Under the pieces are notes generated by a model. That model was given only the letters and a program-made list of their open reading frames with translations. It had not been told where the DNA came from and searched no databases. The position numbers and the translations under genes were made by a program. This document shows, one piece after another, positions 33,886 to 40,551 of a DNA stretch of 64,000 nt (the stretch's first letter is position 1; each line of letters starts with the position of its first letter). Location of the stretch: positions 40,622 to 104,621 of the forward strand of contig QKIY01000040.1 of NCBI GenBank assembly GCA_003250975.1, written 5' to 3'. This DNA is from Gammaproteobacteria bacterium. GTDB taxonomy: Bacteria; Pseudomonadota; Gammaproteobacteria; Eutrophobiales; Eutrophobiaceae.

Positions 33886-34422
33886 ATGGCAAAAGAATAC
33901 GACCTGTTACAAAGTAAGATTGATGCCCTTGAAAAGGAAATTAATACTTTAAAACAGGGGAACCGACGTTACTGCATACGCAAGCGTTCAACGAAGTACC
34001 TCTTGGGTCTGCCATTGTATGACATCGCCTTAGGACCCGATTTCGAGAGGAACGAGAGCCGGGGTCATGCTCGCGGGATCATCGCCATTGGGGATATCGC
34101 AACCGGTATATTCGCTTTGGGGGGCATTGCCCGTGGACTGTTTGCAATCGGTGGCCTGGCCCTTGGCGCTATTTCCCTCGGCGGATGTGCAATAGGACTG
34201 CTCGTAGGCATTGGAGGGCTTGCAATCGGCGCTATTGCAGTGGGAGGTGCAGCAATTGGTCTCATCGCGATAGGCGGTGGTGCATTTGGCTACTACGCCT
34301 GTGGCGGCGGGGCATTCGGAAAATATGTTATCAGCGGCGTGGAGCAGGACCCCGAGGCGATCCGCTTTTTCAGCCAATGGATTTCGGTAATGAAGGAATT
34401 TATACAGCCACAAGGTGGGTAA
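33886..34422 (+). CDS. Glycine-rich decapeptide-repeat protein
   Basis: A 178-residue protein in three parts: a charged N-terminal coiled coil (residues 5-25); a segment GLPLYDIALGPD (41-52); and nine tandem repeats of about ten residues (61-150) of the form xAxG-hydrophobic-x-A-hydrophobic-GG, such as IARGLFAIGG and LAIGAIAVGG, one of them 11 long. A 28-residue non-repetitive tail follows. I recall similar proteins in distant bacteria, with the GLPLxxIAxG lead-in, but no known function. The regularity suggests a beta-solenoid or a membrane-inserted glycine zipper. Confidence 0.78.
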   Translation: MAKEYDLLQSKIDALEKEINTLKQGNRRYCIRKRSTKYLLGLPLYDIALGPDFERNESRGHARGIIAIGDIATGIFALGGIARGLFAIGGLALGAISLGGCAIGLLVGIGGLAIGAIAVGGAAIGLIAIGGGAFGYYACGGGAFGKYVISGVEQDPEAIRFFSQWISVMKEFIQPQGG

Positions 34423-34850: not shown

Positions 34851-35975
34851 ATGACAAATTATATCGGCAAACCTGATTATCAACATGACAGTAGGCCTTG
34901 TCTCGGTGTATTGCTGACTAATCTCGGGACACCTGATGCGCCGACCACGCAAGCAGTAAGAAAATACCTTGCTGAGTTTCTTTCAGATCCTCGCGTGATT
35001 GAGGTGCCGAGACCACTCTGGTGGCTGATCTTGCATGGCATCATCCTGCGCCTGCGGCCCCGGCGCTCAGCACATGGCTATCGCAAGGTATGGACTGATG
35101 AAGGCGCACCCCTGTTATCATGGACCAACAAACAGGCCATGGCGATTCTGAATGAACTTGCCTTGCGCCTGCCTGGTCCGGTAAAAATTGAACCCGCCAT
35201 GCGGTACGGTAATCCGTCCATCAGGTCTGGGCTTGAAAGACTGCGCGATGCAGGCGCAGAACGTATCTTGGTACTGCCTCTCTATCCGCAGTATTCAGCT
35301 ACCACGACAGCCTCAACCTTTGATGCAATCACCAGAGTATTGAAAACCTGGCGCTGGTTACCAGAGCTACGCATGGTTACCCACTATCATGACAATGAAA
35401 ACTACATACTGGCGCTCACAGAAAGCATCAGAGATTACTGGCAGATAAATGGTCAGGCTGAAAAACTGCTGTTTTCCTTTCACGGGATCCCAGAACATTA
35501 CTTTGCTGCGGGGGACCCTTATCATTGCGAGTGTCACAAGACCGCGCGACTGGTAGCCGAGGCATTGCAGCTGAAACCTGAACAATGGATGGTGTGTTTC
35601 CAGTCTCGCTTCGGTCCTCGCGCTTGGCTGAAACCCTATACAGATGAAGTCCTGAAACAGCTTCCCCATGAAGGTATCAAACATGTCAATATACTCTGTC
35701 CCGGCTTCCCTGCAGATTGCCTCGAGACGTTGGAAGAGATTGATATTCGTTATCGCGAATTATTCCTAGAAAGCGGCGGTGAAAAGTTTGACTATATCCC
35801 CGCGCTTAATGATCAACCACGCCATATTGAAGCATTGACAAAACTTATCATTCAACACTGTCAGGGCTGGCCCGAGGCCTCACCGGAGTGGGAGCTTGCT
35901 GATTACGAGGCGAAAATTAAAAGACGCGAAAAATTGTACAATCACCTGAAGCAGGACAATAGCAACAAGAATTAA
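34851..35975 (+). CDS. hemH: Ferrochelatase
   Basis: A 374-residue ferrochelatase that inserts ferrous iron into protoporphyrin IX. The LLTNLGTPDAP opening, the FSFHGIPEHYF motif with the catalytic histidine, the CHKTARLVAEAL region, FQSRFGPRAWLKPYTDE and the NILCPGFPADCLETLEEI motif with the metal-site glutamate are all present. It is a little longer than usual at the C-terminus, ending in a charged helix. The start codon lacks a clear Shine-Dalgarno. Confidence 0.97.
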   Translation: MTNYIGKPDYQHDSRPCLGVLLTNLGTPDAPTTQAVRKYLAEFLSDPRVIEVPRPLWWLILHGIILRLRPRRSAHGYRKVWTDEGAPLLSWTNKQAMAILNELALRLPGPVKIEPAMRYGNPSIRSGLERLRDAGAERILVLPLYPQYSATTTASTFDAITRVLKTWRWLPELRMVTHYHDNENYILALTESIRDYWQINGQAEKLLFSFHGIPEHYFAAGDPYHCECHKTARLVAEALQLKPEQWMVCFQSRFGPRAWLKPYTDEVLKQLPHEGIKHVNILCPGFPADCLETLEEIDIRYRELFLESGGEKFDYIPALNDQPRHIEALTKLIIQHCQGWPEASPEWELADYEAKIKRREKLYNHLKQDNSNKN

Positions 35976-36002: not shown

Positions 36003-36292
36003 TTAGTTATCCGACACCTCCACGCCTCGCCAGAATGCGATATAATCACTGATCTGCTGCGTCGCTTCACTTAGCGAGGGATAATACCTGGCCGCATCCC
36101 TGTTTAGCTCTCCGTTGACTTCCACATGACAATAACTGGCCTGTCCTTTCCAGAAAAAGATGGATGCGTGTTCCTATCCCATAAATATTCTCTCTTTACG
36201 GATTCTGGAGGAAAATAATAATTTCCATCTACACGAATGCAGTCATTACTTTCGGCCAGCATCACCCCTTTCAATCTTGCGACTGTCATCAT
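36003..36292 (-). pseudogene. DUF427 family gene disrupted by a frameshift
   Basis: The first frame reads MTVARLKGVMLAESN, then NYYFPPESVKREYLWDRNTH, and stops early. A second frame of the same strand picks up the family sequence from FFWKGQASYCHVEVNGELNR, through DAARYYPSLSEATQQISDYI, to AFWRGVEVSDN and a stop at 36003. Together they give a complete DUF427 protein of about 95 residues. The switch lies near the T5 run at 36154-36158 and needs a -1 shift, that is one extra base or two missing ones. It is either a recent pseudogene or a sequencing error in the run. It overlaps yjbQ by one base (TAATG), as an intact operon gene would. Confidence 0.85.
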
Positions 36293-36708
36293 TATTCCCC
36301 GTAAAATGTCAGAAAGATATGCCGCTGCTGTCCCCGATAGCGGTGTTCATACAGGTAGATTCCTTGCCATGTTCCCAGTGCCAGACGGGCATTGGTTACC
36401 GGAATGGTCAGGCTGGTTTCTGTCAGGATCGTCCTGATATGTGCCGGCATGTCATCATCACCCTCCATATCATGCTTGAATGCAGGGTCACCATCCCTGA
36501 CCAGACCGGAAAAAAAGGATTCAAGGTCTGTGCGTACCGACCTGTCGGCATTCTCACAGATAATCAAGGATGCGCTGGTATGCCTGATGAAAATATTGCA
36601 CAGGCCGCTGCGGATGCCGGACTGTTCCAGCTGCTGTTCCACCATGGCCGTGATCTCCACGGTAGTACGTCCTTCAGTATTAATATTCAGGGTATTTTGA
36701 TAAATCAT
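36292..36708 (-). CDS. YjbQ family (UPF0047) protein
   Basis: A 138-residue YjbQ/UPF0047 protein. The family motifs are seen: IFIRHTSASLIICENAD in the centre, the HDMEGDDDMPAHIRTIL stretch and LGTWQGIYLYEHR near the end, which carry the conserved His and Asp residues. E. coli YjbQ shows weak thiamine phosphate synthase activity; the real role is unclear. It overlaps the DUF1499 gene by four bases and the DUF427 gene by one, so all belong to one minus-strand operon. Confidence 0.92.
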   Translation of the reverse strand: MIYQNTLNINTEGRTTVEITAMVEQQLEQSGIRSGLCNIFIRHTSASLIICENADRSVRTDLESFFSGLVRDGDPAFKHDMEGDDDMPAHIRTILTETSLTIPVTNARLALGTWQGIYLYEHRYRGQQRHIFLTFYGE

Positions 36709-37187
36709 TGCACTTGATGCTCAAGGGCATGGTAAAAATCCAGGATATGCCTTGAGTTTGTGCCTAGGTCGCCACGTCCCTTGCGTGAAGATGACTGCAA
36801 GTGGACAGTATTACGCGATCCCTCATCAGGCTCGATGCGGATCATCACATCATCCACGAAAGACCAGAGAGGTGTTGTTACGAGGGCATGGATTTCCCGT
36901 CGGTTGCTGTCCTGCGATGCAACCTCCCAGCCAAGTGATTTAATTGCATTGATGCTTGCCTCATAGAGTGATTCGGCATTATCAGGGTAAGCACGAACCT
37001 GCATTTCCGGCAGTAGTGGATCAGCGGATGTCACGGCAATATTGGTTGTCAGATAAATTCTAAGCCGTTCCATTAGCCCTGGCGGGCTTGTAAGCGGCAG
37101 GTTATTCTGAAATATCGCGATACCGAGCATCAGTAATCCTGCCAGGAAAAAAACCAATACTACTAACATGATCTTTATTGCCATCAT
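36705..37187 (-). CDS. DUF1499 domain-containing membrane-anchored protein
   Basis: A 160-residue protein with an N-terminal membrane helix (about residues 5-25) and a DUF1499 domain (about residues 60-157) with the family's SLGWEVAS, FVDDVMIRIEP and SSSRKGRGDLGTNSRHI motifs. Two adjacent ATGs could serve as start. It lies 13 bases after the CULT gene and overlaps yjbQ. The role of DUF1499 is unknown. Confidence 0.86.
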   Translation of the reverse strand: MMAIKIMLVVLVFFLAGLLMLGIAIFQNNLPLTSPPGLMERLRIYLTTNIAVTSADPLLPEMQVRAYPDNAESLYEASINAIKSLGWEVASQDSNRREIHALVTTPLWSFVDDVMIRIEPDEGSRNTVHLQSSSRKGRGDLGTNSRHILDFYHALEHQVQ

Positions 37188-37200
37188 ATCTTGACTGAAC

Positions 37201-37596
37201 TCAATCCCTTACCAGCTTATTCTGAATCAACGCAAAAAATTTCCCGCCGTTACTGAACAGCCATCCCATATGTTCCTTACAACCGGAACAAATCGCAATC
37301 TGCCAGCTGTGACTGGCAAACCAGGTATGATCAAAAGACACGCTACCCACCGCTTGGCATCCCGGGGCCTGATGATAACAGCCAAAGGTATATTTATAAC
37401 CAGCAGGATTCACACACGTATGAACATGCTGGCCGTTTATGACAACGGAATCCGATTCATGCGTGATTAATTGTCCGCATTGCAAACATAACAACCGTCT
37501 TTCGTCCATTAAGACCCTGCTTTTTTTGGCATGCAGATCCTCATCTTCGAGATATCCCGTACTGATATCAAAAAAGCAGAGAACCGAGGCAGTCAT
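37201..37596 (-). CDS. Cereblon-type CULT domain protein
   Basis: A 131-residue protein. It carries zinc cysteines C37 and C40 (CLQCG) and C103 and C106 (CSGC), and the segment VNPAGYKY (residues 62-69). The three tryptophans W92, W98 and W112 and then F114 are spaced like the thalidomide-binding cage W380, W386, W400 and F402 of human cereblon; H90, two residues before W92, matches H378. This is the architecture of single-domain bacterial CULT proteins such as the Magnetospirillum one. The start may instead be ATG 37509, giving 102 residues with a better AGGG site. It follows a TauE gene by 14 bases. The natural ligand of bacterial CULT proteins is not known. Confidence 0.88.
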   Translation of the reverse strand: MTASVLCFFDISTGYLEDEDLHAKKSRVLMDERRLLCLQCGQLITHESDSVVINGQHVHTCVNPAGYKYTFGCYHQAPGCQAVGSVSFDHTWFASHSWQIAICSGCKEHMGWLFSNGGKFFALIQNKLVRD

Positions 37597-37610: not shown

Positions 37611-38411
37611 TTAATAAAGCATCCTTAATCCGATACAGGCCAGAACTATGGCAAAAATGCGCCTGAGCATCAGGACCGGAATTGTATGGGCCAGCCTGGC
37701 GCCCAATGGGGCAAAGAGTACACTCGCAATAAGTATAGTGCCTGCGGCAGGAAGGTATACATAACCCAGGCTGGTGGCTGGCAGCACAGGACTGTCCAGG
37801 CCGGCATAAATGAGGGTGGCTGAACCGGCGACGGCAATAGGAAGACCACAGGCAGATGAGGTAGCGACGGCATTACGCATATTGACATTGCACCATAGGA
37901 AAAAGGGGACGGAGAGTGTCCCACCGCCAATACCCAGCAATGTGGAAACCGAGCCCAGTATCATTCCTGCCAAGCCATTTCCGTAAGGACCCGGCAATTC
38001 CCGCCTGGCTGATGGCTTGATTCCCAGACCTACCTGTAAGGCAACCAGGATTTCGAAAATTCCAAATGCCATACGTAGATTGTCACTCTCAAGCCGGTCC
38101 GCGACCCATGCCCCGAACACGCATCCTACAATAATACCCGGTACCAGTTGAAAAACGACCGGCCAGAGTACTGCACCACGCTGGTGATGGGCGTATGCCG
38201 AAGACATGGATGTAAAAACGATGGTCGCCAAGGAAGTGGCCAGCGCCATGTGCATCTGGATCTCGGGATTGATTCCCTGCTTTATAAATAGGAACAGCAG
38301 TGCCGGGACGATAATAATACCCCCTCCCAGACCCAGCAGGCCGCCAATCAGCCCCGCCAGGACGCCGAGTATGAGGTAGGAAATAAATATTGCAAACGGC
38401 AAAGAAAGCAT
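37611..38411 (-). CDS. TauE/SafE family anion exporter
   Basis: A 266-residue membrane protein with about eight helices and the TauE/SafE signatures GLIGGLLGLGGGIIIVPALL near the N-terminus and GSVSTLLGIGGGTLSVPFF in the middle, the two internally repeated halves. The family exports sulfite or organosulfur anions, among others. It is the first gene of the run with the CULT, DUF1499, YjbQ and DUF427 genes. With sat and tusA it fits sulfur metabolism, but its substrate is not shown. Confidence 0.9.
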   Translation of the reverse strand: MLSLPFAIFISYLILGVLAGLIGGLLGLGGGIIIVPALLFLFIKQGINPEIQMHMALATSLATIVFTSMSSAYAHHQRGAVLWPVVFQLVPGIIVGCVFGAWVADRLESDNLRMAFGIFEILVALQVGLGIKPSARRELPGPYGNGLAGMILGSVSTLLGIGGGTLSVPFFLWCNVNMRNAVATSSACGLPIAVAGSATLIYAGLDSPVLPATSLGYVYLPAAGTILIASVLFAPLGARLAHTIPVLMLRRIFAIVLACIGLRMLY

Positions 38412-38565: not shown

Positions 38566-40551
38566 ATGATCATGCGTTTATATACGGTGTTTTTAATTGC
38601 AGTGTTTTATATACCTGGGCTGCAGGCCACACCGTCGATTGATTCTGAGCTGCTAAAACAGCGCATTCTTTACCGTGAGGCGAAGATCGCCTTGCGCAAG
38701 GGTGATCATAAAAAATTTCTGCAACTCTCGGAGTCCATACGTGAATATCCACTCTACCCTTATCTCCGATATAACTATTTAACTTCACGCTTATCCAGTA
38801 TCGATAACAACGAGATTGCCGTATTTCTTGACGAATACAGTGATTTCCCTTCTGCAGAAACCTTGCGCCAGCGGTGGTTAAAGCGCATGGCCAGCAGCAA
38901 GCAATGGGATACATTCATTAACAACTACAGGCCACAACAGGACAAGCTTTTACGCTGCCAGTACCTTATTGCTTTATTGAATTCGGGCGATACAGAAACG
39001 TTATTGGAAGAATCACGTAATGTATGGCTATCAGGTGTATCGTTGCCTTCGCAATGTGACCCGGCATTCAAGTCATTACATAAGAGTGAATTTATGAATG
39101 ATGATCTGGTTTGGCAACGCATTACTCTCGCAATGGAGAAAAACAACCTGCGGCTTGCCAATTACCTTATCGATCTTCTGGAAGATAAAAACAATCGTAA
39201 ACTGGCAACTGATTGGATAAGCATTCACCAGGACCCGTCCCGTCTCAACATCAACGCTGGTTATGATGACAGCGCAATAAGCCGTCAGATAATCATTGCA
39301 GGGCTGGCGAGAATGGCCCGAACTGATTTGAATACGGCGATCATTCGATGGAAGCAATTTCAAAAAAGGTACTACTTTACACCCGACGAAGAGAACATTC
39401 TTGATCGTAAATTGGCCATACGGGCAGCACTCAAGGGCGATCCTGCCGCCCGAATGCTGCTGGACAATATCCAGCCATACTATACCGATGACACTATTTT
39501 TCACTGGCGGCTGGTCACCGCCCTGGATATTCAGGACTGGCAAAAACTGAAGGAATGGACAGAAGGCAAACCTGTCAGTGAAACAGTCAAATACCGCTGG
39601 TATTACTGGCATGCCAGAGCCCTTGAACAGACCGGGGATAAGGAACAGGCAATGCGGGTTTATGAATTAATCGCTGACCAGCGTGATTATTACGGTTTTC
39701 TGGCGGCAGACAGGCTCGGCAAGGAATACAACATGCAATATGTACCTACGCCTAATGATGTAGAAAAACGAAATGTTATACTGGCCTTGCCCGCAATCCA
39801 ACGTGCCTTTGAACTCCAGGCCATAGATGCGCAATATGAATTGCGTGAAGAGTGGCATCATGCATTGACCTACCTTGACGATGAACAGAAAAAAATCGCG
39901 GCTGCAATAGCATCCGAAAATGGCTGGCATGATCTCGCCATTATCAGCCTGGCTTCCGCGGAGGAATTCGATTATCTGGAATTACGCTTCCCGATGGCAT
40001 ACCAAACCATCATAGAAGACAGTGTGAAGCAACAACAGCTGGACCCAGGCTGGGTCTATTCACTGGTCAGGGCGGAAAGTGCCTTCGTTGAAGACATCAA
40101 ATCGCCGGCCGGTGCACTTGGTCTTATGCAGCTCATGCCACGTACCGCCAGGGAAACGGCAAGGAAAATGGGCGTAAAGAATTTCAAGACATCCTACCTA
40201 TTACAAGCTGAAAAGAATGTACCGATAGGCAGCAGATATCTGAAGCAGATGCTCGACAGGTATCATGGCAACATGATTCTGGCCACCGCAGCCTATAACG
40301 CAGGGCCTACTCAGGTGGATAAATGGTTGTCACACACCGGATGTACGGAACCCGATGTCTGGGTGGAACAGATACCGTTTTCCGAAACTCGACGGTATGT
40401 TAGCCGCATTATGTTTTATGCGAGCATTTATGACTGGCGCATGCAGAAGGATATCCAGCCCCTTGCAAAGAGAATGAGCCTTATACCCGCCAAGCCGGGT
40501 CTTCAGATTGCAGGTCTGGCTTGCAGTGGACAACACATCTCTTACAATTGA
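38566..40551 (+). CDS. slt: Soluble lytic murein transglycosylase
   Basis: A 661-residue periplasmic Slt70-type enzyme. A signal peptide (about residues 1-21) is followed by a long alpha-helical superhelix (U and L domains, about residues 25-480) and a C-terminal SLT domain with the catalytic glutamate in SLVRAESAF, then SPAGALGLMQLMPRTA and ATAAYNAGPTQVDKWL. It cleaves peptidoglycan to 1,6-anhydromuropeptides. Two ATGs two codons apart are possible starts. The next gene begins three bases after the stop. Confidence 0.94.
   Translation: MIMRLYTVFLIAVFYIPGLQATPSIDSELLKQRILYREAKIALRKGDHKKFLQLSESIREYPLYPYLRYNYLTSRLSSIDNNEIAVFLDEYSDFPSAETLRQRWLKRMASSKQWDTFINNYRPQQDKLLRCQYLIALLNSGDTETLLEESRNVWLSGVSLPSQCDPAFKSLHKSEFMNDDLVWQRITLAMEKNNLRLANYLIDLLEDKNNRKLATDWISIHQDPSRLNINAGYDDSAISRQIIIAGLARMARTDLNTAIIRWKQFQKRYYFTPDEENILDRKLAIRAALKGDPAARMLLDNIQPYYTDDTIFHWRLVTALDIQDWQKLKEWTEGKPVSETVKYRWYYWHARALEQTGDKEQAMRVYELIADQRDYYGFLAADRLGKEYNMQYVPTPNDVEKRNVILALPAIQRAFELQAIDAQYELREEWHHALTYLDDEQKKIAAAIASENGWHDLAIISLASAEEFDYLELRFPMAYQTIIEDSVKQQQLDPGWVYSLVRAESAFVEDIKSPAGALGLMQLMPRTARETARKMGVKNFKTSYLLQAEKNVPIGSRYLKQMLDRYHGNMILATAAYNAGPTQVDKWLSHTGCTEPDVWVEQIPFSETRRYVSRIMFYASIYDWRMQKDIQPLAKRMSLIPAKPGLQIAGLACSGQHISYN

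Follow-up and report, generated by a model that had tools for sequence, protein, structure and literature searches.

A stand-alone bacterial CULT protein and a conserved, apparently undescribed motif in its N-terminal tail

Targeted protein degradation uses the pocket of cereblon more than any other handle. For bacterial proteins with the CULT domain that forms this pocket, no function was found in the open literature. The locus described here is from a gammaproteobacterial genome (assembly GCA_003250975.1, contig QKIY01000040.1). The first-pass annotation of the window (the whole stretch of 64,000 nucleotides that was analysed) placed a CULT domain protein in an operon with TauE, DUF1499, YjbQ and DUF427, and considered that this linkage may be the most informative clue.

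Identity, fold and pocket of the protein

The CULT gene occupies positions 37201..37596 of the window and is read from the minus strand, with its ATG at 37596 and its stop codon at 37203..37201, exactly within the boundaries first annotated, and is an intact frame of 131 codons. Searching the sequences of the PDB with phmmer matched the 131-aa product to humanised MsCI4 (9gjq, E=1.6e-19), to MsCI4 from Magnetospirillum gryphiswaldense (MGR_0879; 4v32, E=3.4e-19) and to human cereblon (E about 1e-9), with about 33% identity to MsCI4 over the domain. Pfam and NCBIfam, both used for the profile search, contain no CULT model, and the CULT/Yippee profile comparison recommended at first annotation returned only a sub-threshold Yippee-Mis18 match (E=0.055), whereas CULT domain sequences matched strongly in the phmmer search. 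Membership of Yippee/Mis18 (PF03226), a family with a related beta-tent fold and two CxxC motifs, was rejected since the score of 14.1 bits lies below the Pfam cut-off of 26.6 bits. Membership of the cereblon (CRBN) family was also rejected because the 131-aa protein has no N-terminal LON fusion; the two LON domains of the window's genome (G000:C8 and G000:C27) are both on contigs other than that of the CULT gene. The protein further differs from human cereblon in having neither the helical bundle nor the DDB1-binding region, and it is a bacterial protein with no ubiquitin ligase.

In the AlphaFold2 model, built with 97 relatives, residues 33-131 have a pLDDT above 90 and residues 1-32 one of about 48. 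The CULT beta-tent domain (residues 34-131, 37204..37497, minus strand) was matched by Foldseek to MsCI4 bound to thalidomide (5amh) at 0.9 A and to human CRBN at 1.6 A, so that the structural comparison with the Magnetospirillum protein proposed earlier gave a beta-tent match. With the strong sequence matches and this fold, the CULT assignment made at first annotation stands, and the protein is a true single-domain member of a known bacterial group (PMC4287342). The proteins encoded at the 120 CULT loci collected here were likewise all stand-alone (about 122-178 aa), and no domain fusions were seen among them.

The zinc cysteines (C37, C40, C103, C106), the cage residues (H90, W92, W98, W112, F114) and the VNPAGY segment (residues 62-67) were all found at the positions given for them in the first-pass annotation, and the spacing 90/92/98/112/114 is identical to that of human cereblon 378/380/386/400/402, with H90 corresponding to H378 and N63 to N351. 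Conservation was determined using an alignment of 97 sequences from 98 groups (<75% identity), one sequence having been dropped for unknown residues. The first zinc motif C37-x-x-C40 (37477..37488, minus strand) is conserved in 97/97 sequences, and in the NPAG hairpin or sensor-loop motif (residues 63-66, 37399..37410, minus strand) N63 is present in 97/97, P64 in 95/97 and G66 in 89/97. The second zinc motif, C103/C106, lies together with the cage residues W112 and F114 at 37255..37290 (minus strand). Invariant positions in the alignment were C37, C40, N63, W92, F93, W98, C103, C106, G111, W112 and F120, although the positions covered by the pattern [TS]WF[AEP]GYxW[RQ] (from a 13-sequence alignment) are conditioned for those relatives that were found by a contig scan with it, and not for the members found by the genome search. 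MsCI4 shares the fold, the zinc motifs, the tri-tryptophan cage, the NPxG hairpin and the stand-alone domain; the window protein differs from it in that its N-terminal tail is longer and includes a conserved motif, and in carrying S-H instead of G-Y in the pocket.

This last replacement, on which the first-pass annotation is silent, lies between the cage tryptophans in the first half of the aromatic cage (H90-T-W92-F-A-S95-H96-S-W98, 37303..37329, minus strand). Position 95 is G in 92/97 sequences and S in the window protein, and position 96 is Y in 88/97 and H in the window protein, so that the pocket-supporting Tyr, which was not counted as defining the CULT family, is missing in 9/97 rows including this one. 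The corresponding Y83 of MsCI4 holds the pocket together, and its human counterpart Y384 is one of the two residues altered in a thalidomide-binding-deficient cereblon mutant with affected function (PMC4449219). The protein from the genus sister (55% identity) has N-H at the two positions and retains the zinc and Trp residues. Since S95-H96 occupies near-invariant pocket positions, ligand binding by the window protein is likely but not assured, and its affinity could have been lost or altered. The protein thus adds to a known family a member in which, judged from the alignment, a pocket residue pair is altered.

Gene neighbours and their taxonomic range

The genes surrounding the CULT gene in the window are largely as first described. 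The gene of a TauE/SafE-type transporter (37611..38411, minus strand; PF01925, E 2.6e-56) is immediately upstream with a gap of 14 bp, and those of a DUF1499 protein (36705..37187, minus strand; PF07386, E 1.2e-15) and of YjbQ/UPF0047 (36292..36708, minus strand; PF01894, E 4.9e-40; TIGR00149) follow downstream with a gap of 13 bp and an overlap of 4 bp, respectively. The fourth proposed member, DUF427, is present only as a frameshifted remnant (36006..36292, minus strand), a 62-aa fragment interrupted near 36155 at a T run with the rest in another frame. Its conserved DAAWYYP reads DAARYYP, and the remnant is either a pseudogene or a sequencing error. The CULT gene and its neighbours are probably co-transcribed; a scan for promoters and terminators detected a single weak promoter-like site, a number below that in shuffled sequences. 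On either side are the divergent soluble lytic transglycosylase gene slt (38566..40551, plus strand), which accompanies CULT more constantly than any other gene in the window's family, and the ferrochelatase gene hemH (34851..35975, plus strand), a syntenic landmark at the far side of the locus. A 178-aa protein rich in AIGGxAxG-type repeats, encoded at 33886-34422 (plus strand), had no match in Pfam or NCBIfam.

In the window's family the recurrent order is hemH, DUF427, YjbQ, DUF1499, CULT, TauE, slt, epimerase and cca, with DUF427 to TauE on the strand opposite to the others. A CULT gene is present in 25/37 family genomes (the window's included) and absent from 12/37. Seventeen family genomes contain both CULT and TauE, 8 only CULT, 7 only TauE and 5 neither (Fisher p=0.72). 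In three genomes (G004, G021, G031) CULT is gone and TauE and YjbQ are still adjacent, with DUF1499 also retained in G021 and G031; in most of the eight that have CULT without TauE, CULT still adjoins slt; and TauE and slt remain paired in a CULT-less genome from another family (G048). Since CULT and TauE were each lost alone, the locus behaves as an inherited gene order with independent losses, and the neighbours are co-inherited with CULT yet not needed for the CULT protein. The ferrochelatase gene was within 7.5 kb of CULT in 19/23 family groups, on the opposite strand and with other genes between.

A survey of the neighbourhoods at the 120 loci, which represent 98 CULT groups, found TauE on the same strand 3-66 bp upstream in 15/23 family groups and in 4 other gammaproteobacterial groups (L065/L077/L091, L074, L076, L104), and in 0 of the remaining 71 groups as an upstream neighbour. 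The linkage with TauE, DUF1499 and YjbQ that was proposed from the window alone is therefore real and recurs, but it is confined to one set of Gammaproteobacteria (TauE in 19/98 groups) and looks like mostly inherited gene order. With this restriction and the uncorrelated presence of the two genes, a functional TauE-CULT module was rejected, and the standing of the linkage as the most informative clue is weakened.

Other clades have other neighbours. In 13/14 groups of Desulfobulbales (L099, L103, L110, L121, L124, L127, L142, L144, L146, L149, L150, L152, L166) CULT abuts or overlaps, on the same strand, a gene for a fused uroporphyrinogen-III methyltransferase/synthase (CobA-HemD), and in 4 Desulfobulbales groups hemC is near, upstream. 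Cultured strains that carry CULT include Desulfobulbus elongatus DSM 2908 and Desulfopila aestuarii DSM 18488. A translational GTPase gene (two kinds of EF-G, or RF3) is directly downstream, or one small gene further, in seven groups of two phyla (L084, L086, L125, L145, L164, L129, L163), and FIST-domain proteins adjoin CULT in L075 and L092. As a single case, a gene for a C-terminal processing peptidase (Prc/CtpA family; L154:1-1722, plus strand) lies just upstream of an acidobacterial CULT gene. No universal partner gene was found across the 98 groups, the neighbours being clade-specific, and a CULT protein tree meant to date the TauE association (146 columns, 98 rows) had a backbone without resolution. 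PCMT and stand-alone LON domains were also considered as partners; as almost every sampled genome has them, irrespective of CULT, they do not discriminate and speak neither for nor against the cyclic-imide reading discussed below. The PCMT (isoaspartyl methyltransferase) domain of the window's genome (G000:C39:51179-51787) is part of a 664-aa frame, as it is in the genus sister, compared to the usual length of about 230 aa.

A conserved motif at a fixed distance from the zinc site

The tail preceding the domain (residues 1-32) is predicted to be disordered and contains the motif SVLCFFDI at residues 4-11 (37564..37587, minus strand). Its consensus, hydrophobic-x-[FL]-[FRL]-[DER], occurs in an otherwise unconserved tail and is clear in about half of the CULT proteins. 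As a regular expression it matched 47/98 tails, compared to a mean of 12 and a maximum of 24 in 1000 shuffles, and an ungapped profile collected 52/95 tails with a summed score of 397, compared to a mean of 203 and a maximum of 253 in 50 shuffles; because the rows are related, the significance from shuffling is overstated to a degree that is not known. The motif is separated from the first zinc Cys by 26 residues with a SD of 2.6 (shuffled: mean SD 7.8, minimum 5.2), although this distance played no part in motif scoring, whereas its distance from the start Met is variable (SD 5.9, with start codons picked by rule and tail starts therefore assumed). MAFFT independently lined up F/L in 73/80 and D/E in 60/80 occupied rows. 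Two versions of the motif occur, FFD and LFR, and its range extends over Gammaproteobacteria, Desulfobacterota and Acidobacteriota; short CULT members lack it.

AlphaFold leaves the tail disordered and the motif unpacked against the domain both in the window protein and in a second CULT protein (L060); an extra strand added by the motif to the CULT domain was thus not predicted in either of the two models and was discarded. In the crystallised chain of MsCI4 the first zinc Cys is preceded by only about 23 residues, so that the standard structural model probably lacks the motif. The motif is apparently undescribed, and it is the one feature for which no description was found. The N-terminal belt of cereblon, which includes a conserved FD-containing segment alongside the ligand site, becomes ordered when a ligand binds (PMC4287342; PMC12767645). 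Human cereblon and the window protein each have an FD-containing N-terminal segment; the human segment precedes the LON domain, and the bacterial tail is compared to the belt here as an analogy, with homology not claimed.

Candidate functions

We tentatively favour, with less than even confidence, the reading that the soluble single-domain CULT protein is a cyclic-imide reader with a tethered N-terminal peptide that recruits a partner or caps the site. In nature, cereblon recognises an aspartimide or a glutarimide at the C-terminus of a protein that has been damaged or cleaved. The natural degron of human cereblon is a C-terminal cyclic imide (PMC11974815), and MsCI4, the nearest homologue of known structure, accommodates thalidomide and uridine in the same binding mode (PMC4449219). 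We infer that what bacterial CULT proteins read is either a cyclic imide or a metabolite resembling uracil. The zinc-pinned beta-tent with its tri-tryptophan cage would most likely read a cyclic imide, and occupancy of the cage may be relayed by the conserved tail motif, which a flexible linker holds about 26 residues before the first zinc Cys. The tail would then either dock a partner, adaptor-like, or fold over the occupied site, as the N-terminal belt of cereblon does. A more specific version, which we consider quite unlikely, is that bacterial CULT proteins are adaptors whose cage captures proteins with cyclic-imide ends and whose tail delivers them to a protease or a translation-quality partner, or closes over the site and would be an evolutionary precursor of the belt, without LON; the idea of a translation-quality partner derives from the translational GTPase genes downstream of CULT in seven groups of two phyla.

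It is rather unlikely that the protein is instead a sensor or carrier of small molecules, with a cage that in vivo takes up free uridine, dihydrouracil, hydantoin or a similar metabolite in place of protein ends, and that it would regulate or buffer the metabolism of pyrimidines or imides. MsCI4 binds uridine at low-micromolar affinity and does not bind thymidine or cytidine (PMC4449219), and a small, stand-alone domain would suit this role, but no pyrimidine or imide metabolism genes were identified among the annotated CULT neighbours, the authors of PMC4449219 could find no biological context for uridine, and the N-terminal motif is left unexplained. The possibility that the CULT protein of the window's genus is degenerating or altered in its pocket, S95-H96 having abolished binding and the gene being kept by chance or for structural reasons, seems very improbable: two near-invariant positions are changed, the neighbouring DUF427 is frameshifted and 12/37 family genomes lack CULT, but the frame is intact, all zinc and Trp residues are kept here and in the genus sister, and the model folds with a pLDDT above 90.

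Two further explanations are based on the neighbours. CULT could be part of a unit with TauE, DUF1499 and YjbQ and could sense or regulate the anion that the TauE-like exporter transports (a sulfite or an organosulfonate type). TauE lies 3-66 bp upstream in 19 groups, and the tight spacing suggests a single transcript; this explanation is very unlikely given that presence of the two genes is uncorrelated in the family (p=0.72), that each was lost without the other, that TauE is paired with slt in the CULT-less G048 and that it is absent near CULT outside one gammaproteobacterial set. We regard as the least probable a tetrapyrrole link, in which CULT would bind a product of porphyrin or siroheme breakdown that contains an imide, or would moderate siroheme or heme synthesis. 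The adjacency to CobA-HemD in Desulfobulbales and the proximity of hemH in the window's family are consistent with it; however, the position of hemH on the opposite strand behind other genes argues against it, and outside these two clades hemH was nearby in only 3/61 groups and CobA-HemD or HemC in 0/61, each adjacency probably being inherited gene order at the order or family level.

Because the neighbours change from clade to clade, they alone will not reveal the role of bacterial CULT proteins. The spaced N-terminal motif is a concrete feature that can be mutated, and for which the standard crystal model, MsCI4, appears to be too short. It gives a direct experimental route to the partners that bacterial CULT proteins may recruit, or to the way in which the site is closed. 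If the adaptor reading were true, the damage-reading logic of cereblon would be older than ubiquitin.
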